Shown here in pieces: positions 20,203-56,934 of a DNA stretch of 64,000 bases. Source of the DNA: Ectocarpus siliculosus. Lineage: Eukaryota > Sar > Phaeophyceae > Ectocarpales > Ectocarpaceae. The stretch's first letter is position 1. The number at the start of each line of letters is the position of its first letter. The notes below the pieces were generated by a model. That model was not told where the DNA came from, ran no database searches, and saw only the letters and a list, made by a program, of their open reading frames with translations. A program made the translations under genes and the position numbers. The stretch spans positions 3,227,378 to 3,291,377 of the forward strand of contig FN649751.1 in the NCBI GenBank assembly GCA_000310025.1, in the 5' to 3' direction.

Positions 20203-23200
20203 TCAAAAGGAAGCCGCGCGCGGCTGCTGGAGAACAACTGCCTTAGCCCTCGCCGCCGACGGCGACGCCACTGACGACGACGCAACGAGATGCCTGCCCC
20301 CAACATCGCCAGCCCCGTCACCGCTCATACTGCCACCACCACCACCGCCATCGCCACGATTTTCTTCACCGCAACGGGCTGTCGTTGTCGCCGCCGCACA
20401 ACCACCACCGGCCAAGGACATGGCGGCTGTGGGGCGGAGGGCAGGAAGGAAGGAGGCGCTGGTGTCAGTGCTGCGATTATTGCTATTGCTGCTGCTTCGG
20501 CTTCGGAAGGATTTTTCCTGTTGACACTCGAAATCAGCCGCCAATTGTGCCAGTTCCTGTGTACACAAGGGAGGGAGCGTGTGGGGAAAGAGTGTGTTTA
20601 GTTTGTTTTGGTGTGTCCATGGATGGGGTGAGCGGTGTGTTGTGCATTTTGGTTGCGACGGTTCGTTGGAACGCGACGGCAACACACACGGACTGCGGAG
20701 ATCACTCCCGCCCCCGCATCGCGCATGTGTCTTGTAGCCACGGGCGTGGCGGTGTAGCATGGTCAGGAGGCGGCAGGCAGTGTTCGCAGTCAACAACAGC
20801 GGAGGAGGCGGGGACGGGAAGGGGGGCTGCGAATATCACACTGGCTCATACAAGCGGGGAACCCCTTTCCGAGAACCTAAGAGAGCCGATCGATCGTCTA
20901 CGTAGAGGTTTGAGACCGACCTAAACGTCGAATGTTCTATAAACAACCTTCGATTCGCGTCTACTTGAAGGGTTGAGGCCGAGCTAGGCGTCTAATGTAC
21001 GACATATAAACAACGATTGGCGAATACGATGCTACGCATTCTCCAGTGGAAGGCACAAAAGAATCAATGCACGTTGTACACGGCAGAAGTCGCAGTTTCA
21101 GACGGCCACGGTTAAGGTCTTTCTTCCGGTCGATATACGGATGCATCCACCGATGGATGCCTGCCTATCACCTTCTGTTTGTCCTGTCGCAGTTTTCGGA
21201 GCTCAGCCTTAGCACCGGCAAGCTTCTCGAACAAGACGCGGTACTCCCTTTTTCGACTCTTGAGCTGTGCCGTCAGCGCGAGCGTAGCACTGCTGATGTG
21301 CTCTTCCCGCTCTTTCTCCTCCTCGCACTCGTCTCCGTCTCCTTGGCTCCCTTTCCGCTGTTGGTGCTGCCGCAGCTGGGCCCTTGCGACATCAATCCCC
21401 CCCTTGGCGTCGTTAACGCGGCCCGTGAGATCGCTTGCCAGCGAGCGGACTCGCTGCACAGCCGCCTTTGCGTCCTGCAAGCGGAGAGGAACCGGAGACA
21501 GATGATAGAAGATATCGGCAACAACAACAACGACGACGACGACGACGACGACAACAGCCACGAACATTGAACACCACAGGCGACGGTTGGAGAAACAATC
21601 ACCACCGGCGGCAAGAAACACGAAGTAGTCGGCATTACACTGCCTGCGGCGTCGATATAGACGCTTTCTTCCCGCGCCTCAGGCCATGGCCTGCGTGCAC
21701 GAAGCGTCTCCTTACAAGAAGAAGGGTACCCCCTCGTGCTTTGGCCGCTACAGAAAGATTTTCAAACGGGGGTGATGTCCGCGGTGCTACCAGGCTCTGT
21801 TCTATTGCCTGAAGACGGGAATTGCTTTGTTTCCCCTCGCTAATCTTGAACAGCTCGAACGCTCCGCCCAAATGATGACGACGACGACAACGACGGCGAC
21901 GGCGACGGCGACTTGTCTCTTCGATCTCGCCCCCCGTCCCGTGTGACTCTGTCACTCCCGTCCAATCGTCCTCGGTGACGGCGGTGGATTCGGCGTTCGA
22001 CACGTCTTCGTCACCGCCATAACCGGGCACGGAACGGCGGCGCGACGCACCGCCCTCCTTGTTGTCCGCCTTTTTTGCTGCTGACCCACCGCCGGCACCA
22101 CCACTCTTGTTCGACAAAGTAGTACAAATACCTCCCCCGAGCCGCTCGCTCGGTCGGCTGCCGTCAGGCCCATCGCCATCGCCGTCCCCCCCAAACTCCT
22201 CACTGCAGCTCGCTCCGCCCGGTGCTCTTGCGACGATCCAGGTGTCCGTGGACGGATCACTCCGAGAGCCAATGAAAGGGAGTCGATCTCCTTCGTAGCG
22301 CCTTGTTCCTTCTCGCCGACCGTCTTCCTGACGCGACCCTCCTCGCGATGATTCCGGGCTGTCGATGTCTCTGTTGCTACGCCCCACCACGGCATCGACG
22401 GCGGATCTCACGGCGGCGGCTACTGCCAACTTGCCTCCCCCCTGTTGCATTGGTCCAGTCCGCGGATCGGCGGCTAACGCGGTCAACTCGTTGCCACTCC
22501 TACCGCCGTATTTGCTATCGTGTGCCGCTGCGGAGGTCGACGCTGCCGCCGTGCTCGCCGTCGCCGCCGCCGCCGCTTCCCAGACGAGCTCTCGGAGAGC
22601 TCGGACAAAGTCGCCCGCGTACCCGGCTGCGCGCAAGGAACGCAGTGGTCGGCGAGGGTCGTTGCTGTGCGCCGTCAAGAACGGGGATGAAATAACGCGG
22701 CGCCCTCTCCCGCTCGCGACACGTCCTTTCCTTTCCTCTTGTTCGCCGGCGCTCACCGTCTTCGCTTCGGCCATCTTGTTGCTCCGTCCGCGATGCCCGG
22801 CGTCATCTCCAGCTTCACCCTCCGCCATCTCCTCTTCCTCTTCTTCTTCCTCCTCCTCCTCGTCATCATCTCCCTCCTCCGACGGCACCGTCGTCAAGCT
22901 GTCGCTTTTTCGCCCGTCGCCATCCTCCCGACTGCCACATGCCGCCGTTGCCTGCAACCCGCTGCTTCTTTTTCCCCGCCGCCGCCGCCCCCCCGTCGCC
23001 TCGGCGGTCGCTCGGCGGCGGCCGCCGCAGTTGTTGTTGCTTCTTCCCTCCAGAACGAACCGGCCGGCTTCCTCCCAGACACGACGACGACGACGACGGT
23101 CGTGCTGCGGGACATTGTCGGCGTACGCTGGGGACTCGCACCCTGCTCGGCCGCCGCCTCCGGCGGCTTGCTGTGCCGCCAGCTGTGTCTCGAGCAGATC

Positions 23201-26200
23201 CACCTGACTTCGCAGCCTTGCGCATGCGTATGTGTATGTGTGTGTGTGTGGTCGGCACGGCACGACGAGACCGACAGATGAGAGGATTCATGGGTAGGTT
23301 ATGCGCAAAAGTAGCAACGGGCCGAAAAAATAACACAAACGTTGTTCTTGTTTCACCATTGGTCCACCTTTTCTTCTTTGAACATCGGGCACACAGCAGC
23401 ATGCATAGTGGGGTGGGGATCCTCGCGGGCCGGTGTGAGCAGATTAAGTACAATCCGCGTATACTCCGCGCGCAGAGTGATGGGGCGAAGCATGCACATC
23501 GTAGAATGAGATGATGCGCACCGCATGGGAGACAAAAAAACAAACGTAAGGTTTTGTGTGTGTGTGTGTGTTGCGAACTCAGCAACATACCGTACCTCGC
23601 TATCTCGTCGTCGGCCGACCAGGACCGCTCGTTCACGATCGGGGAGTTCTTCACACAGCGCATGCGGGCGGCAAACTTCAAGGTGGCGAGGCTCTGCTGC
23701 AACAGGTCCGGGCGCGGCCAAATACACGCGACCATGAGAGTCTGGCAGTTTCCACCTAGTGAATCCTGCCAACAACACAGACAGATTATCAAGTCGTGGT
23801 GGCAACGATCACGAGGGTCGCCGGTGATCATCAGTCGAAGCTAAAAAACGCATGCACAAGAGAACCGTGTTCCTAAGAAGCGTAATTTGGATGGTCAGGT
23901 TCCGGTGCAAGGCCATCGTGTAGTAAAGGCGGGATGGCCTGGGAGAAATTAGTCGTGGGTAACCCCATGCCCGTTTCGTCGGCGGTCAAAACAGCAAGAC
24001 TAGGTACGGGACAGACGGAGGAAGATGTGCAGAAGAATAAGCAAATAGGAAACCAATTCTTCTTAACACCCCCGACAAAACAAGCCCGTGTCGATGCAGC
24101 CAGTTCCATAGGGAGCGTCTTGGTCTCACTTACGACTTTATTATATTTCTTGGCGAGGTGAATCGACCGGAATTCCGGAGGGGCGTTTGCCGGATCGTGT
24201 CGAAAACGTCTCGACGGAGCAGCAGCAGGTGGTGCATTGACAAAGAGGGCGCAAGGATAACTGTCCCCGCACAACAGACACGAAGAAGGCCCGAGCAACC
24301 CAAGGAAGGAGCAGAACGTACAGTTGGCCTGTCCGAGAGGAGAGCAGAGGCTTACTCTAGTGGGCCGGCGGCCTTGTGCACCTTCAAGAAGTGAGTCAGC
24401 TTCGAGCTTCGGAACGGCACGTGCTCCCTTGTCTGGTCCGCCAACGCCATCGTGACCTGTGGGAACACCAAAAAAAGATATACGGGATAAAAAAAGTGCA
24501 AGAACAAGCGGGACACGGGCGACACGCCCCCAACAGCACGAGGGGAATAAATGACGGGCTGAGAGGGGGGCGGAACTCGAGCTACAACCGTCGTAGCCGC
24601 ACGGCGTTGCCAGAAGTAAATGCCTGGGAAGGGAAGGACGTCATCACCACCTTGGCGGCTGGCGGCACATAGGGGGGGCAAAGGGATGAATCGCTACCCC
24701 AGACGGCAGCAAGATTGGGGACATGTGCTGGATACAGTAGTGAATGTAGCTCTCGACATGGCCTCAGCTAAAGCTCGACCGCACCAGACACACCCACCTG
24801 CTCCAGAAACGTGAGGGATTTGTTGATGAAGCGACCCTCGCGGTGAAGCACCGCGTTCGCGCCTGTCGCTCCGGTCGCGCTCTTTTCACTCCCGGCCAAA
24901 TCCACCAGGTTTAGCTTTGAGGTCGTCGCTACGCCTCCTCCCCCTCCTCCTCCTCCTCCTCCTCCTCCTATCCACCGTCCCGGTCCTTTTGCAACTCCTC
25001 GTCCGGCGTTCTGCTCGTCTGTGGTCTTCCCCTCGTCGCCGCCAGACATGGCGAGGTGGACGGTCAGGACGGCGTGTGACCTGCCGGTTTGGCCGATCGC
25101 GACGCACGTTCGAGCTCAGCACACAGCAAGCAGCACGAGCGACGGCCGACGGCACATGAACCCGGGGAGGTGCGGCTGGTAGTACGTGCTTCTGCGTTGC
25201 CACCAGAGATCCCGACGTGTTCTACGGGGTTCTTATCCTTTTCCTCGCGGTGAAAGCCTGGCCCGCACTCGTGCCTGAAGTGGGAACCAGATCGTTCTTC
25301 GGACTAGTTGGAAGGGACACCAAGGCGCTTTTCTGCTACAATACGCAGACGACAAGCCCTCTTCTGGCAGTAGAACACTACCACCATGTCTACCGTACTG
25401 TGCTCATTCGTTGTCCAAGTTCTTCGTCGTCTACTTGTTTTCCTGCAGCATCACCCTTTCTCGCCTGGAAGAAACGCGGTTGAACTGATGCTCGGCGACC
25501 TCTCTTGCCACCTGGCCGCATCGCAAGTATCTCAACGCTTCGCCTTCGGTCGACACCGTATGTACGCGAAGCCCCTGCACCCATTCAACCGCCGCCACCA
25601 ATCACCAAACGTCCAAGCACAAACAAGTGGAGGAGGTTTTTCGACGAGCTTGGTTGACCGATGGCCATGGTACGTGCGTTCATACAGCCCACGCGACATT
25701 GTGGACTTACATAGTGCGGGTTGAGTACTGCTACGTTTCCAATAGGTTGTTCGCACCAAGGAGCCTACTTGGGGCTGTTCCAGGAGTCAGGCCAAATATC
25801 AAATTCGTCGTTTGACACCGATGCTCTTCTCTTCTACCTTGACGTATGTGGAGCCGTCAGGTCGCTCATAGATTGCCAGGTCCGCCATCTGCTGACGGGC
25901 ACCCGGTGTTGTTGTCAGAGGAGCGTGCAGGCCGCTGCCGCTGCCGCCAGCGCTCCCGACTTCAAGTTCTCCCACCAACCTTTGGATGGAAGACAAGGGT
26001 GTGTTTCTCTTTCCACCCACGGCGCTCTCTTTTCCGCCGTAAACACTAAACCGCCGCTGCTGCTGGTTGGCCGATGAGTAGGCCTCGGGCGGGAGCAAAA
26101 GGTCGAACAGCTGCTCGTTGTAGATTTCCACGAAAGACATCTAACACACACAACAAGTGTAGGCCGAACCAGGAAAAAGGAGACGTAGGCGGTAGCGGTG

Positions 26201-28747
26201 TGGGAAGCACACACGGGGCACGGCCGGCAGAGGGTATGGCGTTGTCGCGTACACGACGGCAACGAGAGTGTTGACAATTTTTCATACCTGGACGACCCAT
26301 TGTGAGGCTTTAGTCTGGTTGTAGAGGCGCGATGTGGTGAGTAGACGCGCCCATTCACGTCCATGACGTTAGACAGGAATCACACGAGGCGCGTGCTACT
26401 TTCTGGGTGATCACCCAGTAACGTATCCTTTGAGGACGTTGTGTAGAGGGCGGCAAACATATGGGACATATGTGTACCTACAGAGAACCAACGTCGTCGT
26501 GCTGTTCACGACACGAAACCTACCGTAGGTTGCCCGTTCGTTCATGCCATCATTGATTGTACGCACCTGGATCGTGATAGCGGGCTTGTCATTTCCTCTA
26601 CGGCGGCGGGCGGCTTCTCGGAAGACGTCCCGCAGCGCCCTCGCGCATATCCCGCTCCTATTGGCGTCGTCTACCCCATCTCGATCGCTCCCCATCATCG
26701 TGTACGATTTACCTGCCCCCGTACACCCATCTGCCGACGACGCCCCGATGGGGACATGGAAGGGTGGAAACAGTGTGAAATGGGTGGGCGCACGTCATAA
26801 ACGATCGAAACTGCATGCTATCTACGGAAGAGGTACAGAGGATGCAGCGTCATGCCTTATTTACTATACCAATGGTGTATAGAAGCCGACATCAAACCAT
26901 CAGACTAGGTAGCGCTGACTTGTTCTACCAGTCTATCTAATGGTTTGAAATCGACTAGGTGTAGGTGTCAGGATTCGTTCGGTGTCACATTCTCGGAAAT
27001 AGAGACACGACGAGTGAACAATCCTCGTGTCGAGTATATATATTGGGTAGCGGGTGCTTTGCGTTAGAGGTTGCCGAGTTAAGGTAATCTCAAGACGCTG
27101 AGATTAACGAGATTAAAGAGTTCACAGGACATGCTGGCGCATGCAAGGCAGAAGGGAGATCGCGCGTCAACAAACACATGCTGTAGCAAGATGATAAACT
27201 AGATCTCCGTAGATCCGTATCTAGCGTTGAGTCTGCTGAGTACACCCTAACAAGTACGCCTACTCCCCTCAGTGCTCTTGTACACTGATTTCCTTGCGTT
27301 TTGAAGAATTCAATAACCACTGAAGGCTTAACCCCTTTGGGTCTAGCTGTTTCTTTTTTCGGCAAAAAAAAAAAAGGAGGAAAGAGTGCGGGGAGAGAGA
27401 CAGAAGTACAGCAGAAAGAGACGAGTGTACTTGACGCAACAGCTATCTCCACCCATAGGCCATGAGGGCTGCCCGCGACAGGACGTTTGGCACAGACAGG
27501 GTCGTAGAAGGGTTGATGCGTGGTCGCGGTGCGGCCGCTAGGGCAGGTTAGGCTTGTAGACCTCGACAAGATCAGTCGTCAAGCCACCCAAACTACTCTA
27601 TTTTCAGTATATTCAAATGATCAGTGAGAGGACTTGTAGACCCATAGCTGGTTCTTGTACTCCGGTACTTCTCTGTCCCCTCCCCGATGCGAGCCCTGCC
27701 GGCTCACTACAGTTCCTGTGATTTTCCCACAATTCCCACAAGCACGCAAGCACACCAGAACACACCTACCTTTGCATCAGTGGCTCTCTAGGTTCGGGCG
27801 AGGGTATGTGTGGGGCTATGATGATGATGGTGTATGTGTTACTACAGTACTGCTGTATGTTGGACTCGTCTACATATACTGCTGCTGCTGTGTAGTATAG
27901 CTGCTGACATGATGACTGCTGGATGTTGAGAGTGTACGATTTTCAATTTTGGAGGATATGCAGCATACATGTACCACGATATCCTGGCCTGGTTGAGCTT
28001 GAAGTGCTCCTTTTTGCTGTCCTCCTGTCTTTTCTTTGTGTTGCTTGCTAGATTCGGGCGAAGGCATGTATGTATGTGGAGCTATTGATGTGTGTCTCTG
28101 TGAAAGGATATGGGGAGAGATTCATGGTGGCATTCTCATTTAGAGCAGTGTGCATTTTTCGAATTTTGGCCGTTCCAGGGACCTTGATATACCCGCCGGC
28201 ACTAACGTCTTTTCATTTGTCACGGGGTACGTACGCGGTCGATGCGAATAATATGGACACATAGACACACCTACCTATTGACTTGCCAACACCTGGCGTG
28301 GAGGGATACAGGACGGCAACTCCATGGCATGTCACAACACCAGCATGTACAAATGATCAATCAATGATCTGTCAGGACACCTGTAGACCCAGTTAACTCA
28401 CACGCCATGATTGTACCGTTGACGCCGTTGAGCGCCGACTCCAGGATGTCTTTCGCGCATTTTCGGTACACCTCCTCCTGGGAGCATCCGGCCTCTAGCA
28501 CATCGTCGAAAGTGAAACCCCACCGATCATTCCTCGCGCCGCCCCTTACTGTCCTCGCTCCCCACCTGGCGGTACTGCTACTGCTACTGCCGGATTGTCC
28601 CGCTAGCACCGAAGAAGGCTCAGCTGAATGTACCCATAAACATCGATGGTTGGTACCGATCGGAACTCTCTCTGTTGAGGTGCCGAGCGGACGAATCCTA
28701 CAGCACACAGTGATCCTACCGCCGCCGTGTTCCGCTGACGTGCCCAT
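20203..28747 (-). CDS. KIF9: Kinesin-9 family motor protein (KIF9/KIF6-like)
   Basis: Ten exons, in transcript order: 28747-28402, 26730-26567, 26140-25838, 25574-25465, 25080-24798, 24456-24382, 23765-23596, 23216-21716, 21474-21172, 20556-20203. They close in frame to 1202 aa. The N-terminal motor has the P-loop GCTGAGKS (117-124), switch I SSRSH (306-310) and switch II DLAGSE (368-373). The following INKSLTFLEQ, HVPFRSSKLTHFLKDSLGGN and LATLKFAARM match kinesin-9 more closely than other classes. A poly-Gly insertion precedes switch II. The roughly 500-residue exon 8 is mostly disordered, with an acidic run and an AFELFK element like that of KIF9/KIF6. Exons 9-10 are coiled coil plus a low-complexity tail. 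Kinesin-9 proteins are axonemal motors of the central pair or doublets. Intron 4 must be GC-AG to give SSRSH. The start is well placed, just before the first motor strand RITVCCRIRPL. Confidence 0.88.
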
Positions 28748-29130
28748 AGGACGAGATTAGGTGCTGCATTCGGTCGCTACAAGGCAAGGTTGGGTTAGCT
28801 CAGCAATGATTCGGGAACGATTGCTGCTTTTATCCACAGATCTACGTATCTACGTTCTACGTATTGTATCTGAAATCTCCGAAAAAACGCGAAAGATCTT
28901 GTACAGTCATCTCCGATAGACATCTGTATCTCCGGAGATCGACGGTTTCGTTTCAGAAGGACACACACCGCTCTCTCTCTCTCTCTCGCTTGCTCTCGTT
29001 AGCGTGTTGGAGTGCAACCACCGACAGCCTTACCCACCAGTGCTGCTGTGATACGGCCCTTCATAACGCTATCTCAGATCGGCTCGTAACGAACAAAAGG
29101 AACAAATACGCAGCGGAGGCAACGGCGAGC
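28748..29130. promoter_or_regulatory. Putative shared promoter between kinesin-9 and p28
   Basis: Only 383 bp separate the divergent start codons of two flagellar genes, so 5' UTRs and both promoters must fit here. A CT microsatellite lies near 28973-28988. I looked for an RFX X-box-like palindrome and saw no clear one. Bidirectional control is inferred from the arrangement. Confidence 0.5.
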
Positions 29131-32100
29131 ATGATCCCCCCGCACAACTCCCTCGTGAAGTATGACAATCCGATACTCGTGAGCACGACCGGCAACCGAG
29201 GCGGGAAGGGAGCAAAGAAGAAAGGGCAGGCGCCAACTGTCGAGCGACCATCCTCGCAAACGGAGGATATCCTCAACTCTATCTTGCCGCCGAGGTGCGT
29301 CCCTCGCGCGCTCAACCTTTTTCACACCCGGTCGTACCCGTGCTCGTGGTGTGGCTTGGGTCATAGTGTCGAGTACTGCGCAATTCGCGAGTGCTTGTCG
29401 TTGGGTATTTGTTTCAGAGCACAAGGTAGGCTATCTTCCACTGCCACTGCTCATGTTTACAGTCCGAGCAAAACACGGAGGCACCCAAATAAATTCACAG
29501 CAGTGTACATACCGTAGGTGACACAAGATACCACACCCCCTGAGCCTATTGTCAAAGCTCGAGTACTCAACCAAGCTCGAGTACTCAACGACGAAGAGAA
29601 TGCATAAATGAAAAATAAAGATCCGATACATTTTGTTTCGGAAAGCTCTCTCGACGAGAAGGCTTGAACGCGGCGCTTCGAATCTTCTCGACGCTTCGAT
29701 TCTTTGTGCTGTGGCGATATCAAGCTTTGAAAATTGGTCCAAGGGGGGTGATATCTTGCATCATGTCCACCGACGGCACAGGTAGTGTAGACTACATACA
29801 TATGCTTGTAAGGGTAAACGTAAGGAATCTACTGTAGACTACCCCTAGCATATGCACAGGTTTGGGGCACAACGGAATAAGACCGTCTCGATCGACAACA
29901 TTTCCATCTTCAGTTACGGAGGCAAGGCCGTAGGGAAGTTGGGAACAACGAGCGACCGTTTGAAAAATGGGATGACGACAGAACAGAATCTTCGTGGACG
30001 GATTGACGGGGCGAAGCCTCCTCCCTGTGTTTCTACTATCCCTCGGAGTACCCACAGCACTTAGTGGCAGCCCTGTATACAGCAGACTCAACGTGGCAGA
30101 CCTGGTGTTCATCTCATGTACTTCATACCTTGTTTTCTAAACATCAGCATATATCTGTGTCTTGTTTTTCAAGGAACCCTGTCAATCGCAATATATTTGC
30201 ACCGGCCTTTTTTGACCGACACTACTGTACGTGTAAGGAGCTACAGCCCGGAGGTCGTGCAGAAGGCTTCGGTGTATTGTATCAACCAGCAATTGAATGT
30301 GTCGAGAAGGGTTCATTTGTCCTCAAGCCCGCTTTGTATCCTCACTCGCGAAGAAGAACTTTCTAAATCGCCGGGATTTGAACCCGCGGGGTTGACCGTC
30401 CCAAAGTTTCGAGGATACTTGTAGACGGAGGCCTCGTGCCGTGCTTGTTGAGAACTGCGGCCATGTCACGTGTAGCTTGAGCCCGACGAAGGCCGAGTCG
30501 AGGTCACAGAAGAAGTACGCGTACAAAGTGAGAGCCTGCGATATGTGGCACACGCCATCCGTCCTTCTTCTCCTTTTTCTCTTTGTCACGACGATGACAG
30601 GGAATGGACTGACGACGGGCAGCTCTGGGTGCAGTATGTGTCGAGCACGCCGGCGACCCGACTAGACGTTACTAACCTTCAGGAACAGCTAGACCAGAAG
30701 CTACAACAGAGACAAGCGAGGGAAACAGGGATCTGCCCCGTTAGAGAGGAGTTGTATTCGCAGTGCTTTGGTGAGTGAGCGTAGGTTGGGGCGCCGAGGG
30801 TATGTATGCGTCTCAACAACCACGTACTACGAACAGACAGGTGGTGGTAGAGCGATTTACCTTCGACATGCACACGGTCGCAAGATTCTAATTGATTCGT
30901 TTACGAATACTGGTCAATGGTGGCCAAGCAACAGGTAAATTGACAAGAAGGGCCCGTGTTTATGCGTGGAGGAACAAGCAATGGACCGTTCTTGATTCCT
31001 GTGAAGGGTGGCGGAGATTGTTCGTACGAATGACAACTCAGAACACAATTCGACGTGTTGTTTCCGAGGGCACAAAACGACTGAGGAGGAGACACACGTG
31101 TCGAACGTTGTCCAGCAATTCGAGAAGAAGGTTTCGCTCTTGTTGACTCACACGACAAGCGCACAGAGTGTGATAGCGGAAGGTCCACGACGTTGTTGTT
31201 GTTGCTGTATATTTGTCAAACGGGTACAGATTGAGAGACGACTACATCTGGGCAATCACTAAAGCTTACGATAACCAGTCGGCACCAAGCTCACGCGCAG
31301 TCACTGCCTTGCCATCAAAATCACACCTTGGGCACTCGGTGCCCTATAACAAGTTACTAAGAATATTCTCGACTCTTGCTTGACCGCATGTTCGCCCCCC
31401 GGTCCCCCCCCCCGACTCCGCTGCCTGTGCGCCCGAACGACTAGACGAGCTGATTAGACAGGTGACAATAAACTGTGCTGAACGAGGGTTGCTGCTACTC
31501 CGCGTGCGGGACGAGATCCATATGACCATAGCCGCGTATCAGACGATGTACGAGTCGAGCATTGCCTTCGGCATCCGGAAGGCGCTCATCGCTGAGCAGC
31601 GCAAAGCAGAAATGGAGGCAAAGGTACTGTACGTACGAGTTACTGCATCCACAGCCTAGGATATTTGGATTCATTTCTTCCTTTTTTGTTTGGCTCATTT
31701 TGATCAGTCGTGCTAACCGCTCGCAGTACGTAAGGTCTGACGATAGTAACCACGGATGGATGGAGTACATCGAAGAGTATTGCGCAAGTTGTTGAGATGT
31801 TTGTTGAGAGGTTTCTTGTGACTGCGTGAACGCAATTGTGTAGGTTCCCAAACCTTCGAGCAAGATCATGCGTTATGGAACACATACGCAAGGAATATGC
31901 AGGAAAGATTCTTGAAAATAATGTGAACCCAAGAGAGGGGACACAAAGATTCGGCCGCTGTGAGGAAAATGCACCAGATGCATGACCAATTGTTTCCATT
32001 CCGGACCAATTTTTTCCATTCCAACTGTGGTGCGTGCTGCAATTTTCGTTTCAAAGCCGTTTGATGGTATCTATCTGTGTATCCCTTGAAAGAGTTAACC

Positions 32101-42362: not shown

Positions 42363-43235
42363 TTAACCTTCCTCGTCGTCGAAATCGTCGTCGAAGTCAT
42401 CTCCATACTCGCTAGGTGCAGCGTCATTTTCACTTCCCAGCTGCTCGTTTTCCTCCTCCCCATCTCCATCGAAAAGAAGCCTATCTGTGTCTGCCTCGCC
42501 AAATGTTTCACCCTGATCGAGGCCATCTTCCATGATGGCTTGAGAGGAAGAAGAGTGAGCATCACTGGTGTTGTTGTTGGTGGTGATGTCTCCATCGACT
42601 TGGGGTGGAGGCGCTGTTGCACCGCCGTCAATGCTGCTACGGGGAACCTCTGCCACTGGTTCTGCCTCATCACTGCGAAGGTCGCCACTCCTGCCGCTGT
42701 TGGATGCGGTTGGGGACAGCTCAACGTCTGCTTTTCTGGCAATCACTTGCTCTTCTTGTTCTTGTTCCAGTTGTTCCTCCTCTCCTATGCTGATGCCATG
42801 GTTGCTGTTGTGACCTACGGTGATGCTAGTTTTCGTTGCACCATTCTCGCCGGTTGTGGTCTCAACGTCATCAGACCATCGTCCAGCATCAGAACTGTTT
42901 GAGGATGTTCCCGTCCTCACGACCCCTTCCCTTTCCGCGTTTGTTGCTGCTGCTGCTTCGATGTTCTCGCTCGATTTTCCACCGATGATCTCCTCGTCCG
43001 AGACCCCCCACGAGGAAGCCGATCCGGCGAGCTGATGGCCTGACTTGTCGCCGCCCTGTTGAGCCCCGCTTTGTTCGCTGCTGTAACTGTCTCGCGGGCC
43101 ATCTTCACCATTGCAGCTATTTTCGATATTCTCCTCTGCTTGCTGATGATAACGTTTTGCGGTTAGGCTCGTGTCGTCTTCACGTTTATTTGCCGCCGGT
43201 GCTGGGGGTGTAACGGTGTATGCTGCCGCCGCTGT

Positions 43236-43266
<31 letters not shown>

Positions 43267-46030
43267 TCTGTGAGCGATCCACGGGGCGACGACGACGAGA
43301 CCCGTTTCGCATCGTATACGGCGTCGCTTTCGTCTCCAGGTGCTACTAAAGGGCCTGATACGTCATTCTGAGGTGGCCGCGCTGCAGTGAGGCTAGCTGG
43401 CGAACGACCGTACCGACGGCCAACTCCATCGCGACCATCACCGTTCTCCTCGCCACCTCCATTGTCGTGCCTCGCGGCTGAACCATGCCCACCGACTTTC
43501 ACATCACTCATGGGGACAAAACTAACGTCGCTACCCTTTTTCTCCCTGCTGGTAAAGGAACCAGAGCGCGGCGAGGAAGAATGAGAGCGCACGCTTGGTC
43601 TCCGACTTCCTCGTCCGGCCTGTTCTCGGCGTGGAGGCTCAGCTGAGACAACTGGAACGGTGAACGCGGCGTGGTTGTCATGCTCGCGGTTTGAAGAGCG
43701 AAGAGAAGAGGAAGAAGGGGTTCGTGCTGTACGCGGCTGGCGAGCGCCGTCGCCACCAACGCCGCCGCTGCTTCCACCGGCAGCCCGGCCGGAAGAAGGC
43801 GACGTCAAACCCACCCTCTTTTCCTCGTCAATGAGTTTTGTTCTAAACTCACCGCTTCTCCGGGGTGCGGATAGCGGTCGGCGACCTCGAAGACCAGCCG
43901 CCGCTGTTCGAGAATCGGATCCACGCCTAGTTGTGGCCGATGCCGCCCGTATCATGCCTTGGCTCCGTGAGCCTCCCGCCCTGTGGACAACCGTCGAAGC
44001 CCCCCCAAACCATCTGCCGCAAGAGCGCTGTTTCGTTCTTTGCGAGATATGCTGATCTCGGGGTCTACCATGAGCGCTGATATTGAGTTTTTCTCCCCCC
44101 GCTCTTGACACCATCTGGGCACGACGGGGGGGGCTGACCCTCCGCTTCGGAGAAAGAGGTCTTTGGTACCGATCTCTTCCTGTCGGTGAAACCCTCGGAT
44201 CATGCAGCACCATGCCGTCATTTTCTTGGTGTAGTATGGTCGGGGAAAACTCGTCAACTGCTGCTGCTCCCCAGGTGTGCTGGTGGTTGTTCCGAAGCTT
44301 GTCGCCGGCGCTCCGGACGATCGTTTCGACATCCTGAGCGTCCTGTTCGAAACGAACGGGGTTTGCAACTGACGTCGCGCCGTCGAAGGCCTCCGGCCTT
44401 GCACGCCAGAGGACGCTGTCTACTCCCGAGCTTCTTCTTCGAGTCTGGTCTCGTCGATTCGGGGTGTACTCCTCTCTCGTAGTATTCCGTTCTTCGTTGT
44501 GAAAGCAATTGCTGGGTGATGTGGCTTGCTGCTGTTGGTGCTGCTGAACAATCAGCTTCTGAAGTCGCTGGATTTCGAGAAAGTATTCCTCAGTTACCGC
44601 AGTCATCTCCATCACGGCCGACCATTCCTGCCGTGAAAATATGGGAAGCGCACGCGTCGAAGAGAGCAGTGCTTCAGAGTATATTATATACGTTGCAAGC
44701 TATACAAATCTCGAAAATATCAATGTTTGTCACGTTATCGCAGCGAGAAGCTCTCTTTCGCTCTCGGTCTCTCTTTCTAATCCTTCTTCCTCGCTTTCTC
44801 AGGTGCTCAACACAAACCAGAATTCCACTAAACCCAGGGGAAGCTACAGGACCCTCAGTGTCGACGCTACGGCGATGGGATGTGCTTCCACACCACCACA
44901 GACGGAAACGGAATGATGCCTAACTGCTCATACGTACGACGGTTCGGCAACGTATTCCAACGCAAACCTTTGTTCGCTTGATCGTGTCCAGCTCTCGCTC
45001 TTGGCGAGCTAGCAATTGCTGTAGGTGTGTTTTTTGCTTTGCCAGCGTTCTCACAACTGCACATTTTTCTACCTCGCTGCGCGCGGCGTGTAGCAGCCGC
45101 TGATCCCTGATGTAAAACCCGGGGGAGAGCAGGAAAAACGGCGGTGAATAAGTTAGCCAACAGCTTGCCGTCTCTTGTTCCTGTGTCTTTAACTCAAAGT
45201 GGTGGCGTTGTACGGAAGTTACTCGCGGATTACAGAAAGCAAGCAAGGCGTGTTCATGCCAGCGTGTCATGTACTTCTTTACAAGGAGAGTATAGTCTAT
45301 GTACTAAGTAGTCTACAACTCTATTGCTAGGCTACTCGATGATGCAGAGACGGACGGATTGACTGCTCCGCGTGCCTATCCGCTAACATCTACTTTATAA
45401 AACGTGGGAGGAGACGACAGCAGTGCACTTGTTCCATGTCCTACAGAGATCGTATGTGATCGGGGACAACAACACTATGCACTGACACAACGACGGAGTC
45501 TAGGTAACAAGAGCCGCGTATTTGCAGCGTGCTTACACGCACCTTTTTCCGGGCGTCTGCTCAAGCTCGAAGAGGAGAATCTCAATCTTGTCGTCAGCTC
45601 GCAAGAGCTCCCCCTCCAAGCGCGCCTTGTTGACCCGATAGCGCCTGTTCTCTTCGGTGGCTCTACTCAATGCGACCTTAAGTTTGTGATTGTCGTCCTC
45701 CAGGGTTTCGATGTCGTTTACAGGGTTGTTGTCGTCCAACACCATCCTCCTTCTCCGAGCCGTTCCTTCCCGACGCCGTCGAAAGTCGATATCGAGAGAA
45801 AGCGGCTCTTCTACTACCCCCTCTGCCCAGCTACGCCCCGAGCGTGCCGAGGATGCCATTGCGCTTCGTCCAACCGTGCATCTTCTAGAACTGGAGCTCC
45901 TTGCGCTCATTGGTCTCCAAGAAGGGGCGCCGCCCCGCTTAGGTACTACAGCAGTAGATGGAGGGCTGGCATATGCAGAAGCGAGTTCAAAGGCCGCGCG
46001 ATTTCGTTCTTCCCGCTGTTGTGCCCTCAT
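42363..46030 (-). CDS. Coiled-coil protein with long acidic low-complexity tail
   Basis: Three exons in transcript order (46030-45543, 45106-44968, 44627-42363) close in frame to 963 aa. Residues from about 100 to 240 form a nearly continuous coiled coil across the two exon joints. It contains ETLEDDNHKLKVALSRATEE, KIEILLFELEQ, LQQLLARQERELDTIKR and YFLEIQRLQKLI. The pattern of charged heptads followed by an 'E.Y..E..RLQ' segment is reminiscent of IQCE-type ciliary proteins, but this is only a weak resemblance. The rest is Ser/Arg-rich, then Glu/Asp-rich, ending DDFDDDFDDEEG. Function is unknown. Divergent arrangement with DNAI4 suggests a flagellar role. The start at the ATG before RAQQREERNR is my choice; the frame is open upstream. 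Confidence 0.65.
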
Positions 46031-46242
46031 CCCCTCCGATGTCGGGCGCGTTTGTGATTGTACGTGGTGTACATGTGGTGTGCACTTCCAAGGGAGTCTG
46101 TGTGGTTCGTGGTTGGCGCTTACCGCGTAATTTAGCGAGTTCCGTTTGCGGCATGATTGCGAAATGCGGCGTAATTCGAGTGGCTGTACCGCGACGGTTT
46201 CATGTGACGGTTCGACAACACGAATAGGTTCTGACTGATGAG

Positions 46243-46299
<57 letters not shown>

Positions 46300-46425: not shown

Positions 46426-49400
46426 ATGACGTCCCGCGCCAGCGTCAACCGCGTCAGGGGGACCGGTCAAAGTCGGTGAGTTGCCATTACGCCCGTTTAT
46501 CCTGCGGACAGCTTGGGCGTGAGATGCGGCTTCTCTTCTGAGATCTAATGGAGTAGCTAATCCAGATAAAGCTTTCAATACTCGTCAGGTCTACATACTT
46601 TACGTTGTATGTGTAGAAACACAAACATCTCAAAGCAACCTCGCTCGTTCATGCAGATCAAAGATCGGTGTTTCGCGAGCCGGAGGCTCGAGGAGTAGAG
46701 CCGGGGTGTCGGCAGGTGCAAGCGGAACTCACGGGGGCGGGGTGGGAGGGGTGAGAGTGTTTTTAAATGGAGTCAACGTCACGCCGCAGAGTTTGCTCAC
46801 CTCAGCATCGCGATCATCAGCGGGGAACACCTCGGCCGCGGCGGAAGCTGCCGCCGCCGCCACAAGAAGAAAGGCGTCAGGGGATGCACCAATCAAGCGA
46901 CCTTCTGGAGGTGGCGTGGCGCCCCGAAAGAAGCCCAGCTTATCGGTGGAAGCCCAGCAGAGCGCCCCGGCCGCTGCAAGATCGGAAGGCGGGCATGGTA
47001 GTGGTGGTGGCGGTGGGGCAAAGTCACCTGCAGGGCGTCGAAAGCGGGCGGGGGAAGGGGCCGGCGAGGAAAGTGGACTCACGGAGGAGGATCTCAGCGC
47101 ACCGATTACGATCGGATTATGCGAAACACCGACGATGATGTTGTTGGAGATCCGGGGCTCGGCCGTTGCAACCGACCTCCGAGACTTTGGCAGGTGGAAC
47201 CTCCGCAATGTGTCAGTCTTTCCTATTTCCCCCCAGAAAATCCACGGTGGTTGGTCATTGGTATCGGTACCCATTTGTTGTGAATTGCCATTACCAACTA
47301 CGAAGTAGTCTACACAGATACCAAGGCAATCACAATACCACGCAGAATGTCGATTCCCGTGTATAGGTTGCCACTGTTATTGATGGAACCATTACAGAAA
47401 GTCGCTCCTGGCTTGATGACACTCACAAAGTTGTTGCATTTCTTGATTTATCCTTTTTGTAACAGGCTCGCTCTCGTTCCGCGCTCAATGGTGGAGAACG
47501 AGGACAGGGGTTTGAATCCTGATCACCGTTACCGACTAAAATACCCAACATCCATGTAGCGCTCATACAACGCCCACATGTATTGTGCTCAAACACTATT
47601 AAATAGTTGCTCCAGGACACCATCCAACGAAATACAGTACAATACCCCGCCAACAAATGTTCAATTTCCACTACCGGACAGGAATGTCTATTTCATCCGC
47701 ATTCGACCGAACCATCTAATCACCTCGGGTAGCCTAGGGCGCTAGCCACTTGTGCCGTGGAAGATTGTCGGGGGTTCGTTCTCCACCCGACGCTTCCCGG
47801 CATGTACGCACATTGCGGTGTTTGGCTCGATATGCAAGTTGCGTTATCGTGGCCGGTAGTTCTGTTTCTTTATCGTTGTTCCTAAGGACAGCTGGCTGCG
47901 GCATCCGGCCACTGGGATAGGTGATTTGTCTAAGTGGTTGATATGTCTGGGAGTAGCTCTGGAAATGTTTCGTCTGCTCTTTTCTCTAGTTGCCAGTCAT
48001 TGCCTGGAACACCTGACAACAAGCTAGTAGACTTGGGACTGAATCTTGGCGCATGTGATATTTGGTTTGGAAAATTGAATATCGCGAGCAGTCAACAATA
48101 GTTTCATCACGCATTAGGTGTTTTCCTGTTCTTTGTGTGCTATACACTGCAAAAATATCTGAGCAGCGCCGCGATGGTAAGTGATCATCCAAGGTGCACT
48201 ACCGCGGTGGATGGTTACCGTACCAAACAGGACCAACCCGAAATGTCGTTACCCAAGAAGGCCCTGAGTCTTTCAAATCGACTCACGCCCATTTGCACAC
48301 GGTGCAAGTTAAACACAGGCGCCGGCTACTTTTAACAATCTTCGATTTCATCGCTGATAACCGTGATACAACTACACAGAGTGACCCCTCCAGTGTAAAA
48401 GGCTTCAGCGTCTTGATGCTCTTTTGTCTCGGTGTGGTCTTGGGCAAAATACAATCGAAAATCACCGACGTCGCCGGCACCACCCCCACCATTTCGAAAA
48501 CGTGGAAGAGAGAGAGAGAGAGCCGATCCACGAAACGACCAAAGTCTGATGTATGGAACAAACAGCGCTCCACTATCAGCTCTACTGCTTGCATGGTGTG
48601 GACAAGCGCTCAACCCGCACTGAGGATACCACAGACCGAAGAGCGGCAAGCACCAAACTAATCAATCGTGGGGTTCTCTCTCTACTGCACCCAGGTACCA
48701 ACAAGAGAAGCAGGACTACGAAAAACGGGTGCAGGAAAAGATAGGAAGTGACAGGTTTGCTTCCAGACACGCACAGACTGTGAACTGGGCGCTGAAGACG
48801 AAAGAGGTGGGCAACGAACCAAATCATTTGAACAATGTTGACACCTGTAACGCCTCGGACAGAAGTTCGACCTGCCAGTGGCCATGTGGCCAGATGCCTT
48901 ACTGGATGTACGTTACTGGGGCGACCAACTATGTGCTGTCACGCAGTTGCTGTCTCGCAGACAAGACTCGGGATGGTTGTACTATTATTTTGGCAACTCT
49001 TTGGAAGCCCATGCGGTTGAGCATATCTTCATTGGTTCAACGTGCAAGCGTGGCGCTGTAGACACAGAGAGGTGTATTCTAGCTGTTGTTTTCATGCCCT
49101 ACGTGTTGGGTGGCGGCCTCCCCTTCTTGACAGCGAGAATCGCGGCCTAGGTACACGGCCTGCCGGTTCACTTACCATCGCGAGTTGCTGCTGTCATCCT
49201 CGCTCTACTGCTGCCCACACGCGTCCACCCCACCTTCGATCCGCCTTATTTGCGACGTAAATACAAAAACTGACAAAAAAAAACACCAAAAGGTTACGGC
49301 GGCTGCGGCGGCCACCAAAGACGCTTCGTGCGCCGCGACCACCTGGGAGATCTTCGACGAGCAGTCCAAGGCAACGGACCAGGGCGTAGCAGACGATGGG

Positions 49401-52400
49401 GTGTACGGGGGGGCGGGCAGCAAAGCGGAGGTCGGGGGAGAGGAAACAGCGGTGCAGCGGCAGGCCGGGGAGCTTGCGACGGTGACGCTCGCCAGGTACG
49501 AATGATGTAGATCAACAGCTGGGAAACAAGCGAGACCACGCTGAGCTGTTATCCGACGATGGCGCAATGAAGTGAAAACATACCTTGGTACACGGCCGGC
49601 CTTCGATCAATCCCCCCGCCATCCCGTTCTTCCTCGCTGTCGCCCTCAAAACAGCGACGGTTGCCTCCTCGAGACAGCAAGCACCGTGGCGCCCGCCCCG
49701 CTGCCATCAGAGGCCACCGCCGACACCGGTAAGAGCGGCGGCGGCGGCGGTGGTGTCAGCACCAATGCCGTCAACCCGAACGCTAGCCGAGCCCGCGGCA
49801 TCAGCGGCACGGGCGTCACAGGGCCGATTGGTGGTGGTGGTGGTGGCGGCGGCGGCGGCGGAGCCGGGCGTGCCAAGGCCAACCCGAAAAACTCGAGCGT
49901 CGGCACGGTCGGAACTGCCGGGGGCGGTGGGGCAAGCAAGGTCAACCTGGACGGCGGTGGTGGGGAACTCGCGGAGGCGGTGGAATTGCCCATGGATTCC
50001 AGGTTTGGCACACGATAGAATTTTGATGAAAGTGTCGATGCACAACGGCGGTGAGTCGGCAAAGCAGCTCGAACAGGAAGAGACGAAAAGCGGGGTACAG
50101 ACGCACGAACAAGTATTCCTTTAGCGCACAGAGGCATAGATACATGTGTGGGTTGCAAAGCCAATGAGGTTGAGTTTCCGAGACGTGCATTCGTCTCTCG
50201 GTGTGTGTGACGAGTATGCCAGCGAGAGACACCGACGACGGCGCACGTGCTACACTGTGTGCGTGAGTTACCACTTCCATGGCCCCGTCCTCGCTCATAA
50301 ACAAACGTACCCGCCAGAGGCTATCAGTTGCCGCTCTCAAAAGTTCATTGTGCTATTGTACAGTGATGGTGACATTGACGTTGTTGAGTGGAGTCTCATC
50401 GCCGTTGCTGCTGCTGCTGCTGCTGCTGCTATTTTCACGTCTATTGGGCACTTGTTGACGACGTTGTTCGTTTTCGGCGTCGGGCCCTCAGGGGAGTCGC
50501 AGAGGTGCTGGCGGCGCAACAGGCGGAGAAAATCATGGTGTCGAAGCAGCTTCTCGATTCCCTCGAGCTGGTGAGTTGCTGCTGTCTCCGCGTTAGCTGT
50601 CGTCCTTCTACCCGGGTCATTTTACCCTCCCTTGAATGCCCTGACTAGAACACAAAAGCTCGGGCATATACACCACAGAACAAATGATCAACATTAACGG
50701 GACTAAACGGAGTGTATCGTTCACCAAGCTCCGGCCGGAGCTCAGAAGCGAGGCTATCATGCTCGCTTGGCCATCCGCCCCTACTTGTTTATGTGGCCTC
50801 CAAGACGTCCATCAACATCCACAAGCCCAACGTCATCTGCGTCATGTACATGCTGTTTTAGGTGGAGCGGAGCTTGTTCCAGAACTTCCTCCACAGCAAG
50901 CAGCTCGAGTACCGCAACTACCCTCCCGTCGAGATGCCCGCCGAGGAGGACTTGTTCGGCGGTGTGCCGGGAGGCACGGGTGGCAGCTCGATCGGAGGAG
51001 GATCGGAGAACCGCCAATCCGACGCGTGGGAGAACATGTCAACGAGCAACAAGGTTTGTTTGTCTGCGCGTGGAGTGAGAGCCTGAGAGAAAATCCTTCA
51101 TCAGATCTACCGCCGTGGAGGGGGAGGGCAAATGCCCCCTGACACTGCCGTCGAAAAAGCTCCCCCTGACGACCCAAAAGTATTGAACCGGAAGCGCAGT
51201 CGATGGTGCAACAAAGTACAGAAGGAGACGCAAAGAAAACAAATGTGAAAGGCTCGTTCCCTTTCACAGCCGAGCTGTTTCGGCGCCAATGATCCGCATT
51301 TCCCGAACAAGAAGGGTGTCGACGCTTGCAATGCCCTGGCGGCGTTGAGGGGCATGAGGTCACGACATTTCCGAACACCAATCATTCGGGTTGGGTAGCC
51401 CTCTCCCGCCGCGGATCAAGTGGGTCTTGGGACTCATCCACGGGGAGGGAAGGAGGGGTGGGTGCAATACTCCAAATGCGAACACCAGAACAAGGATGAA
51501 CAGAAACATCACGACGCACGTGATGACTCTCTGTACGTATCACACCCCCGCTTAATGAAATCACTGTGCCTGAGACGGAACACTCTACCTTCACGATCGT
51601 ATCTTGGAGGCTCGGCACGGACACGAATAACAACGGTGCATCAGGCCACCCTCCCACCGAAAAAAATACTTGCAGGGGGGACGGTGTGTACAAGCAGATT
51701 GTGCTGTTCCTCATTAAGTATTTCCGTTCCGGGTGGCATCATCATCATCCCTTTCTTTCTCAGTGTTCGGACTCAATCAAACATAAAACCAATAACCTAT
51801 CATCCACCAGGTGTCCCTCCATCCTTAGCGTAAAAGACTTCAACGCGTCTTCATCCAAGAGCCATCTCGAGCGGGTGTATTCTGTTGATAAAAACGAAAT
51901 ACTGTTGTCGTCATTGTCTCCTCCCTTTGTGACCTATCACCCTCTATCCGTTGGCACTCACGCGCCCTCCTTGCTCTCACATCGAACCCTTCCACGAACC
52001 CGCCGCCTCCAGCAAGACGGAGGGGGCCCGAAAAACACCAGTCTCGAGCTTTTGTGGACTCACCGATACCCCTTCGCGGAGAGGGTAGGAGGCGGTGGTA
52101 CGGCGGTCGATTCCAGCGTCAACGGCGGGGCTCAGCACGGGGCAGGTGCGGCGCCAAGCGGTGGCGGCGGCGGTGGCGGCGGCGGTGGCGGCGGCGGCGG
52201 TGGAAGACCCCACCAGGCCGGAGCGAACCGTGCTCCCCGCAGCGGCGGCGTAGAGGCCGGCGGTGTTGGGGCCATGGGCGGGGGGGGCGGGGGGGGCCCT
52301 GCCGCGGGTGCAACTGCCGCTGCTGCTGCTGCTTCGGCGGCGGCAGCCGCTGCCGAGCACGCTAGACGAGATCGCACCGTGACTGCCCTTTGCTTCCACC

Positions 52401-55400
52401 ACTACAACGGAGACGTCTTGGCGGTGGGGTACGGCGCTTTCTTCTTCTCGCCGAGCGTCCACAAGGGGGGTGCGGTGCTGTTTTGGTCGGTGAGACGAGA
52501 GGGCACAGATATATGACGACACACACGGGTTTGGAGGGGAAACGATGGGTTTCGACTCACTGAAAGTAACAGGGCATGTTGGCTACCATGGGTCGTTCGC
52601 GTGCGTGGCATGGGTGGTGCTCAACGACAAAGTGTGCCCATCAGCACACCCATCAAACACCCAGTACACAGCTTCGACACAATCTTACTTCCGGAACCAC
52701 TCGACCTGACATCAGGCATCTACCTGCTGGCGGCTGTTTGGGTGAATATCAAAGTTCGCAAAGGCGTATCTGAAATTCTTTTTTTCCACGTTCTGTTCTA
52801 CTGAAATACATAGGTCCGCAATCCCGAGTACCCGGAGCGCACAATCCACACCCACAGCAGTGTGACCAGCCTGGACTTTGCCGAGAGACACCCGACTCTC
52901 CTCGCCGTCGGCATGTACGACGGCACGATCGCGATCTACGACACCGCGAGGGAGGGCGAGGTCGGTCAACACGCTTTCTTGTGTCTCCCTACAGATCGCG
53001 CCGCCACAACTCGGCTGCTGTGAGCGCTTGTCTCTGCTACTCTTGAACTACACGCCGTATACATGAGAGGAATTAGGGTACTGGATTAATCCCCGAGATT
53101 TGCTATGGTTCACAGGTATATCTCCGGGAAGAAAAGGGTCCCTCTGCAACAGCCCGGTTCCCTACGTGACATTCCAGACACACAAACACACACGTGGAAT
53201 AGACGCGTATCTATACGACCAAATTACTACAAAAGATAAATGCAGAGCCGAACAAAGACGAACATAACACACGTTTCGGTTGTGTTGAACAGTGTTCCGG
53301 ATCTATCCGGGGTAGGGAAATAGATAGCCCCCATCCAGGATACACCTACAGAACGCAAGCATTTCCTTCTTGTAGGAAGGGAGGGAGGAGCGAAGAGTGA
53401 TGAGTGTTGGTAAGGCATTTGAGTTTCCATGTCATTGTCGGTTGGACGTTGACTGTGTACCCCTTTCGAGACGGAGCGCGAGGGGGCGAGGGGGGAGAGG
53501 GGGAGGCGGCGGCGCCAGGTTTCGGCGGATTCGGTGCTTACGCCACCCACAACATATCGAGAACGTGCTTACGAGGACGCCGCATGGCAGTAGGGTAGCT
53601 CACGTCCTTTCGCTTTCCCTGACACACCACCACCGCTGCCACCGCTGCTACCACATATCCTACGCACACCACCACCGGCGGGCGCTTTTGCTCTTAACGG
53701 CAGCATTCTTCGGTGGCCGTGGCGGAGAGCAGCACTTCCTCCGGCAAACACACTGACCCTGTCTGGCAGGTGACTGAAACGCCCAACTGGGTTACTCAGA
53801 GAGTCGGTCACGCAATTTGTTTTCAGAGCGAACAGAGCACGGGCTGCATGGGGATGGGGGGGGGGCGCAGGGGTTCAGGGGTGCACGAACGGGGTGAGGA
53901 CGGGGAGGAAGACGGCGGTTAAGCTTTCAGCACCGTACAACGGTCGAAGGCAATCGATTCGTATGATGAGGGCCGAAACAGGATCTCGTGAACCCCGATA
54001 CCGATGTCCCTTTAATGAGCGTTGACCCCGATGATGACACTAACGAACGAACAAACCTGTAAGTCCCTCTTAAAAGGTATAATTGTTGTTCGCATCCATC
54101 ATCTTTTCCGTAGACCAATGCCTGCAACCGAGCAAGTTTTCTTCACGTCTCGACACAAATTCCTACGTGTAAAAAGCAAGACATCGAGGACGTTTCATGC
54201 TACACGTGCCGTTAATGGCGCCAGCTGGCGCTTGCGAGTAGGATTCCAGTTGGTAGTGAAATCGTACATGCGTTCAACTGCGTAACGACCAGGGTTTCGG
54301 TATGTTTTGTGCCGAACTTGACCAGTTGCAGCACACGCATGCAACCACCAAACGTAACTGATACAGGTCAAGTGGGTTAACAAAGGTGTGGAGCGAGGCG
54401 AGACCCTAGTGTCCATCAGCACCGACGGCCGGGTGGTGGAGTGGTCTATGAAGAAGGGCCTTAGCTTCAGCCCTCTCATGGTGCTCAAACGCATCGGTGA
54501 GAGACTGAGCGTGCTCATCGCGTTGTAACGATAAAAGTGGGCTTGTGGTAGTGGGACGTGAGGCTGAGGCCCATCCTGTCGTCTCCCCTAGACTCGTTGT
54601 TTCCCTCGAAATTTTAACTTGATCGACGGGTACGACACCATCCGAGGGGAACACATGGTAGCCGTTCGTCCCTCTCCCGGCTCCGCCGAACCAACCTAAC
54701 GAACTACCACAACCCAGTCACACACACACGCACGCGGGGGTATCGCTCCTTCCAGGCAATACGGAAGGCGTGATATCTCGGCAGGCCAGCGGCCTATCGT
54801 TCGACTTCCCTCCCGGCGACGGAGCTACGTACTTCGCCGGCACCGAGGACGGCCTGATCCACAAGTGCTCCGTCAGCTACAACGAGCAGTACCTTGAGAC
54901 GTACCACGGCCACAAGGGCCCCGTCTACCGCATCCGGTGCTCGCCCTTCTGCGACCGTCTGTTCCTGTCCGCTAGGTGTGCGTGGGGGGTTCATCGGGCG
55001 TAGGTGTCGCAAGATGTGGTACGAACGCTGTTGCATACAAGGGGCATCTACACGGGGAACTCTTAGCTATCAGGGATGAACTACTATGTACGTAGTAGGT
55101 CCTAACCACAACAAGTTCTCCGAAGCTTCATAACACAAGCTGTCTTCTCCACCACTCTTGCTCTCCCGGAATCCCCCCCCCCCCCCCCCCTCTATCCAAC
55201 CCTCCCCTATCCAGAACGACACGCTCACTGCACTTCTGTCGCGTATCCCTCGAACCTTCTTCCAAATCAATGCGCCCCCCCCAACAAACAGTGCCGACTG
55301 GACGGTGCGGTTATGGGAAGAGCGGCAGACAACCCCGTTGCATACCCTTCGGTCGGTGGATCTATGGGACGTGGTCAACGACGTGGCGTGGTCCCCGACG

Positions 55401-56934
55401 TGCTCCACGGTCTTCGCTTCCGTCGCAGGGGACGGGCGAGTCCAACTCTGGGACCTGGCGCACTCCACCCTGGACCCTATCGTGTCCACTGACCCCAACG
55501 CGAAGAGGAACGACAGGTGAGCTGTCCCTGGTGGTGGTGCTGCTGCTGCTACAGTATGTAGGGCCGGTGTAAGCCAACGCCAGGCAGAGTACAGTGGAGG
55601 TTTCTCCGTGTGGAAAAGATGTTCGCACGACAATTGTTTGAACTTCGGATAATGACTTCCGTCGGCTGACGACTCGCACAAACCTCGGGCACAAAAGAGA
55701 TGGTGGTTATTGTCCGGTGGGGGGTTGCACCGTAGGAGCACAACTCTCCCACTTGTTGCAGAAAAGTCTTTTGGGCTGTCTTCGCCTTGATACTGATTTT
55801 CACGTTCCTCTTCCCCCACAAACTCCACAACGGCATATCGGTACCCCTTCTCACAACTCTTAAACTGAAACGAAACCCGTCTGTCCATTAAAAATGCATG
55901 AACAGCTCACCTGGGGCTAGGTCGATGGACAACGGCAGTGGCAGCGGTACCTCTACGCTCGACGGGGGAGCGTCCGTAACGGGAGGAAACGGACTCTCCC
56001 CGCGACCGCGGGACACAAACAACGCTGGGGACGCGGGGCGGTCTGAGCTGGGCGGTCTGTCCCCGAGGAACGTGCCGGCTAGGTCTCAGGGCTTGCCAAG
56101 CGGCGGCGGCGGCGGCGGCGTTGGAGGGTTGGGTGGCCAGCCGAGGGTACGGCCACGAGGGGTGCAGCTTACGGCAGTCACGTTCGCCGCGAACGCTCCT
56201 GTCATGGCCGTGGGTAAGAGACCGATGTTGAGTTTTTCTCCAGTGACTTGTGCCCCCTTTCCAGTGAAACGGGAAGACGTTTCCTCGGGTTTAGCTAAGG
56301 AAGAGAGGGTACCCTTAACGTCATATCACACACTTTACGTTTATTTGTGCAATGTTTCGCATGGGGAGAATAACAGAACAGAGAGGCGCCTTGTCTGTAG
56401 AAAAGACTTTGCAAGAGCGGCCGGCCGTGGCAGCCGGAGCCGACGTTGGCTGATTGGGTTAGTCACGTGCGCGTTGTGTGTTGACTGTATTCACATTGCA
56501 AGCTCGGTGATGCTGCCGTGGTTAAAGGTTTGCCTACATAGGCAGTGCTTTGTTTGACGTGAATGTCGTCGACTCGACCGACGTCAGGCGGTAAGTGTTA
56601 CAGATATGTGCCATATCATCGACAAAAGTTGTGTGTGACTCCCATCCGCTATTTAGTACGAATTGCTTCACTAGGAAGTTGACAAGTCTCGGTTGGTGGT
56701 CGTTTCATCAAAAGAGATTAGGACAAAGAGTTGCCCTCCCTCCGACAAGTTCATGAACCATCAACGCTCAGCCTACATGCAACCCGCCTGTTGCGCGCCA
56801 CACACGCAGGAGATTCTCAAGGTTGCGTAGACGTTTACAAGATTGTCGGGCTGGACCTAACGCCGGACGTGACCCGTGAGGAGCAGGTGGAACGCCTTCG
56901 CAAAGCAGTCATAACCGCCGACGCGGAAAGATGA
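46426..56934 (+). CDS. DNAI4: Axonemal dynein intermediate chain, IC138/WDR78 type
   Basis: Fifteen exons close in frame to 1053 aa: 46426-46475, 46699-47193, 48695-48806, 49293-49495, 49655-50002, 50492-50570, 50862-51053, 52013-52489, 52814-52960, 53704-53769, 54367-54496, 54756-54975, 55292-55516, 55921-56213, 56810-56934. The N-terminus has VRVFLNGVNVTPQSLL, the WDR78-type 'VFD..G.DVTP' motif. The WD40 propeller follows from about residue 610: DVLAVGYGAF, NPEYPERTIHTHSSVTSLDF, LLAVGMYDGTIAIYD, LVSISTDGRVVEWSMKKGL, VISRQASGLSFDF, IHKCSVSYNEQYLETYHGHK, ADWTVRLWEE, GDGRVQLWDLA and GDSQGCVDVYK. The combination of ISRQA, the HKCS.SYNEQ motif and the KKGL pattern favours WDR78 over DNAI1 or DNAI2. 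IC138 is the regulatory intermediate chain of the I1/f two-headed inner arm. Poly-Gly/Ala insertions lie in exons 5, 8 and 14. The first intron's acceptor could be 46696 instead of 46699; both stay in frame. Confidence 0.92.

Follow-up and report, generated by a model that had tools for sequence, protein, structure and literature searches.

Two pairs of head-to-head genes lie in succession on one contig of Ectocarpus siliculosus, and the question they raise is whether they form a flagellar gene cluster expressed from shared promoters, as an initial annotation proposed, or merely the usual layout of a brown algal chromosome. The window, meaning the whole stretch of 64,000 nucleotides that was analysed, spans positions 3227378-3291377 of contig C26 in a genome of 189 Mb and 492 contigs. 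The favoured answer, with a probability of roughly 0.78, is that this is ordinary divergent brown-alga architecture in which the genes for KIF9, p28 and IC138 stand near one another mainly by chance. No report of a cluster of these genes was recognised in the open-licence literature searched. Gene models were built by hand on splice sites, and all spacer lengths run from ATG to ATG, not from transcription starts. The features concerned are:

20203..28747, minus strand: kinesin-9 (KIF9) gene, hand-built on splice sites with Pfam and PDB matches
28402-28747, 26567-26730, 25838-26140, 25465-25574 (GC donor), 24798-25080, 24382-24456 and 23596-23765, minus strand: exons of the KIF9 motor
Within open frames 21635-23287, 21112-21678 and 20203-20835, minus strand: KIF9 tail, exon borders by eye
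28748..29130: divergent spacer between the KIF9 and p28 start codons, 383 bp, ATG to ATG
29131..33264, plus strand: p28/DNALI1, axonemal inner-arm dynein light chain, five exons, with Pfam and PDB matches
34535..38500, minus strand: gene with RING-H2 and SAP domains (RNF34/ARMET_C-like), borders approximate, RING by eye
42363..46030, minus strand: coiled-coil gene (ATG at 46030), three exons, 963 aa
46031..46425: divergent spacer between the coiled-coil gene and IC138, 395 bp, ATG to ATG
46426..56934, plus strand: IC138/DNAI4, I1 dynein intermediate chain, 15 exons, 1072 aa

These models, together with Pfam and PDB matches, uphold the gene identities, coordinates and 383 and 395 bp spacings first proposed. 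Within the printed models the inner exons are bordered by GT-AG throughout, with the exception of one GC donor in KIF9 (at 25464-25465), which makes the intron after exon 25465-25574 on the minus strand GC-AG. The seven motor exons of KIF9, read on the minus strand from the ATG at 28747, match the Pfam Kinesin family (E = 2.7e-85), and the solved structures nearest to the motor are those of KIF9 (E = 2.9e-65 and 1.7e-64); a kinesin-like chain of 7n61 matches at E = 6.7e-55. The tail carries the KIF9-type domain PF23735 (E = 7.2e-12), for which this locus is the sole match genome-wide at E <= 0.001, such that motor and tail both place the protein in kinesin-9.

The p28 protein is matched by PF10211 over domain positions 1-187 of 187 (E = 5.6e-89), and by the 28 kDa inner dynein arm light chain of 7ju4 over residues 1-237 of 238 (E = 7.2e-101); with an axonemal dynein light chain domain across most of its length, it is assigned to p28/DNALI1. 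The first intron of this gene (window 29500-29800) holds a diverged dispersed repeat, with matches in both orientations; further copies stand in front of a p28 paralogue and at another place on contig C26. The best IC138/DNAI4 chains matching the IC138 model are DNAI4 of 8j07 (E = 2.5e-86) and IC138 of 8glv (E = 1.7e-83), against which DNAI1 is weaker (1.9e-62), and these best matches set it with IC138/DNAI4 among the dynein intermediate chains. The top PDB entry, 9fqr_Hx (5e-88), was deposited under the name Cilia and flagella associated protein 100, while a further two chains labelled DNAI4 score more weakly (1.5e-61 and 1.6e-45). KIF9, p28 and IC138 hence match solved axoneme proteins, in agreement with the view that three of the four genes are axonemal. 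It is also reasonable to assign two of them to inner arms, although the arms differ: p28 is a subunit of the single-headed inner arms, and IC138 belongs to the two-headed I1 arm.

The divergent layout of both pairs does not stand out from what is usual in Ectocarpus, and a reading of it as unusual is not supported. Among the genes flanking the intergenic regions studied in this species, 61.7% belong to divergent pairs, and the median spacer is 409 bp in divergent as opposed to 2293 bp in tandem arrangements (PMC7784034); the two window spacers, as measured between start codons, come close to the divergent median. The same layout recurs in the window at a third, non-flagellar pair:

58187..60490, minus strand: gene without recognised family, start by eye
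60491..60640: divergent spacer of the third pair, 150 bp
60641..63681, plus strand: panC (pantoate-beta-alanine ligase), start by eye; the 3' end may exceed the window

The minus-strand open frame head to head with panC extends over 58187-60655 (822 aa), and returned no Pfam match and, for the 153-residue part tried, no PDB match.

Nor does back-to-back layout alone show joint control of the genes, as had been supposed when co-regulation from shared promoters was read from it. If transcription starts less than 1 kb apart are taken as the mark of a bidirectional promoter, the two pairs may qualify: their start codons are 383 and 395 bp apart, and transcription would begin inside the spacer unless the 5' ends extend further. 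Ectocarpus divergent partners less than about 600 bp apart are reported to have a common nucleosome-depleted region, and yet the same source finds that partners, even at under 600 bp, are not co-expressed (Pearson 0.054), and terms them independently regulated (PMC7784034). This lack of correlation argues against the proposal that both spacers are true bidirectional flagellar promoters, in which one element drives both genes and selection keeps flagellar genes together. We consider that proposal unlikely, even with the axonemal nature of three of the four genes in its favour, along with the tendency toward related function ascribed to conserved divergent pairs in metazoa and fungi (PMC2871058).

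The extent to which the grouping of three flagellar genes could arise by chance was estimated by simulation, in which flagellar genes were placed at random among 17,400 genes (the Ectocarpus gene count). At least three fell within five consecutive genes with P = 0.06, 0.24, 0.69 and 0.98 for 150, 250, 400 and 600 flagellar genes, and with P = 0.06, 0.22, 0.68 and 0.96 when physical span was used instead; the estimate consequently hinges on the flagellar gene number assumed, being 0.06 with 150. With 250 such genes, 3.6 adjacent flagellar pairs are expected, and 1.8 divergent ones on the assumption that this orientation accounts for half. In Phytophthora infestans, a survey of 257 flagellar genes described them as 'not clustered' (PMC3471859). 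Since the simulation produces it often and the flagellar genes of P. infestans are not clustered, the presence of three flagellar genes in five is not remarkable. Four would be, and would need the coiled-coil gene to be flagellar: four in five genes were obtained with P = 0.000, 0.002, 0.024 and 0.080 for the same series of flagellar gene numbers, and by physical span in 0%, 0.2%, 2.7% and 15.5% of cases.

The surroundings of the genes likewise fail to bear out the description of one cluster built of two pairs. The RING/SAP gene sits between the KIF9/p28 and coiled-coil/IC138 pairs, and no flagellar family was found in the scanned flanks. This latter result comes from a Pfam scan by single exon of 76 ORFs. 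The window, excluding the four genes, contributed 17 chosen ORFs, and the flanks contributed 59 out of 75; the flanks were covered for 60 kb to the left and about 20 kb to the right, a further 40 kb on the right reading N. The 12 families matched, including pantoate ligase, mitochondrial carrier, Na/H exchanger, protein kinase, Zn cluster and SAP, contained none that is flagellar; scanning exon by exon can miss genes, and the same method did detect a p28 paralogue (in 2 of 12 ORFs). Searching the window for Rfam families and tRNAs gave no matches. A 100-base N gap within window 39145-39651 is bordered by two copies of a 202-base stretch, 90.6% identical, which look as if the assembly had doubled the gap's edge. 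The genome also contains at least 150 EsV-1-7 repeats (150 of 880 candidates were scored), an abundance that fits a brown alga because this family is reported to have expanded in the group (PMC7457493).

The fourth gene was put forward as a flagellar candidate, a suggestion that its position adjoining IC138 favours weakly, and that protein matches do not. Two Pfam scans matched no ciliary family, the first 238 residues matched nothing in a PDB set that includes axoneme structures, and the protein was not placed in any known ciliary coiled-coil family. The one Pfam match below threshold, to SUIM_assoc (E = 0.0044), was rejected, as it falls on a glutamine run. An alternative upstream ATG exists at 46154, and the frame from it did not join the gene with the one acceptor tried. 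That this gene nevertheless encodes a flagellar component, making the four a real flagellar cluster, is a tentative and rather doubtful possibility. It would be in keeping with the coiled-coil-like core of the protein (recognised by eye), its long low-complexity acidic tail and the lack of a second copy of the core in the genome (E <= 1), as well as with the rarity of four flagellar genes in five by chance. Set against this are the missing ciliary matches and the weakness of position as evidence, which the panC pair illustrates.

Sequence common to the two spacers also bears on the proposal of bidirectional promoters. The decamer CGACGGTTTC is present once per flagellar spacer on the same strand (window 28940 and 46192), and nowhere else in the window or in the flanking and paralogue loci scanned; its core, GACGGTT, occurs a second time at window 46206, and both spacers contain a CT/GA tract. 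Such features would suit an element common to both pairs, although about 0.3 common decamers are expected between two such spacers by a simple count (383 x 395 x 2 / 4^10). The KIF9/p28 and coiled-coil/IC138 spacers have 16 8-mers, 12 9-mers and 10 10-mers in common, for which the 95% limits among random piece pairs are 16, 7 and 4, respectively. The excess of 9- and 10-mers is largely due to the CT/GA tract, outside which only two 9-mers and one 10-mer are held in common. No X-box-like pattern was found in the window flagellar spacers.

Other loci speak both for and against the proposal of bidirectional promoters. Nine other flagellar loci were inspected, with starts and most partner labels assigned by eye; DM10 matches on C457 and C47 stood outside this sample. 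The gene for RSP3 (RSP3a, PF06098, plus strand of C10) faces an ARL6/BBS3-like gene on the minus strand, with 375 bp (C10:2485484-2485858) between ATGs chosen by eye, and so constitutes another head-to-head pair in support of such promoters; the best solved match of the ARL6-like gene is ARL6 (E = 1e-19), by a small margin over ARF1 (1.2e-18). Against them, IFT20 faces at 438 bp a gene that reads as unrelated, an MDHAR-like oxidoreductase, and neither the decamer, nor its GACGGTT core, nor the CT/GA tract is present in the RSP3/ARL6-like or IFT20 spacers. As a general promoter motif CGACGGTTTC was rejected, being absent from these two spacers and from that of panC. The decamer turns up once more at about 3 kb upstream from the likely start of a second RSP3 locus (RSP3b), at a site where no adjoining gene start was recognised, which also tells against a promoter function. 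In at least three of the four flagellar spacers a single 8-mer recurs (GAGAGAGC), compared with a mean of 1.4 in random pieces.

Two additional p28-family loci are present in the genome, on C11 and C2, and by eye neither faces a kinesin-9. The first (p28-2, C11:3862000-3881999) is head to head, across more than 1 kb, with a gene judged by eye to be phosducin-like, and a GRIP domain was found at this locus in one of the 12 ORFs scanned; the second (p28-3) faces a gene of unrecognised kind with CUE/PDZ-like stretches, again by eye. No p28 relatives were confirmed among nine stretches of viral contigs. A DM10 gene on C2 tentatively faces a gene without recognised kind, while no divergent partner was recognised within about 3 kb of RSP3b or within 1.5 kb of IFT81, and partners were unsettled for the remaining two loci, RIB43A and an NYD-SP28 gene (itself a weak match, E = 2.1e-4). 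A ciliary-looking pairing in one of nine loci is compatible both with chance and with mild enrichment.

A bolder version of the argument would hold that flagellar genes in brown algae stand head to head more often than chance allows, with one element, whose core in some cases might be GACGGTT, switching on both partners in flagellated cells, and that the coiled-coil protein is an axonemal or basal-body component. KIF9/p28, RSP3/ARL6-like and perhaps coiled-coil/IC138 would be the candidate pairs. We regard this as very unlikely. The points that do count against the chance account are its dependence on the flagellar gene number assumed, the derivation of its base rates and gene count from Ectocarpus, the limits of a flank scan by single exon with 40 kb on the right reading N, the existence of the RSP3/ARL6-like pair and the excess of common 9- and 10-mers in the window spacers.

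Ordinary divergent architecture remains the preferred explanation, and would operate as follows. Neighbouring genes would tend to alternate strands and divergent genes to lie on either side of one short spacer. Each spacer of about 390 bp most likely houses a core promoter for either partner, the two standing back to back within a single nucleosome-free region. The adjacency of KIF9, p28 and IC138 would then be mainly a matter of chance. The three are probably co-expressed in flagellated cells as part of a wide flagellar programme, rather than by way of shared promoters; as an Ectocarpus co-expression module is reported to be enriched in flagellar terms (PMC12629598), flagellar co-expression need not stem from neighbourhood. 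The systems behind co-expressed life-cycle modules are, according to one life-cycle study, currently unknown (PMC12629598). If flagellar genes were truly paired at shared promoters, these spacers would be the place to seek the control element. The locus also illustrates how easily a common gene layout passes for a functional cluster.

The individual proteins can be compared with known axonemal counterparts. KLP1 is a kinesin-9 located at the central pair, and the window kinesin has the motor and KIF9-type tail of KIF9/KLP1, from which it differs in the long low-complexity inserts of both parts. The window p28 resembles the inner-arm light chain p28/DNALI1 over nearly its full length, with nothing notable differing. 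In the IC138/DNAI4 homologue it is the WD-repeat half that matches, and glycine- and alanine-rich insertions set the window protein apart. At the level of gene order, the two pairs resemble the close divergent pairs described in Ectocarpus, which are likewise head to head across spacers near 400 bp and need no functional link (PMC7784034). The difference is that KIF9/p28 joins two axonemal genes.
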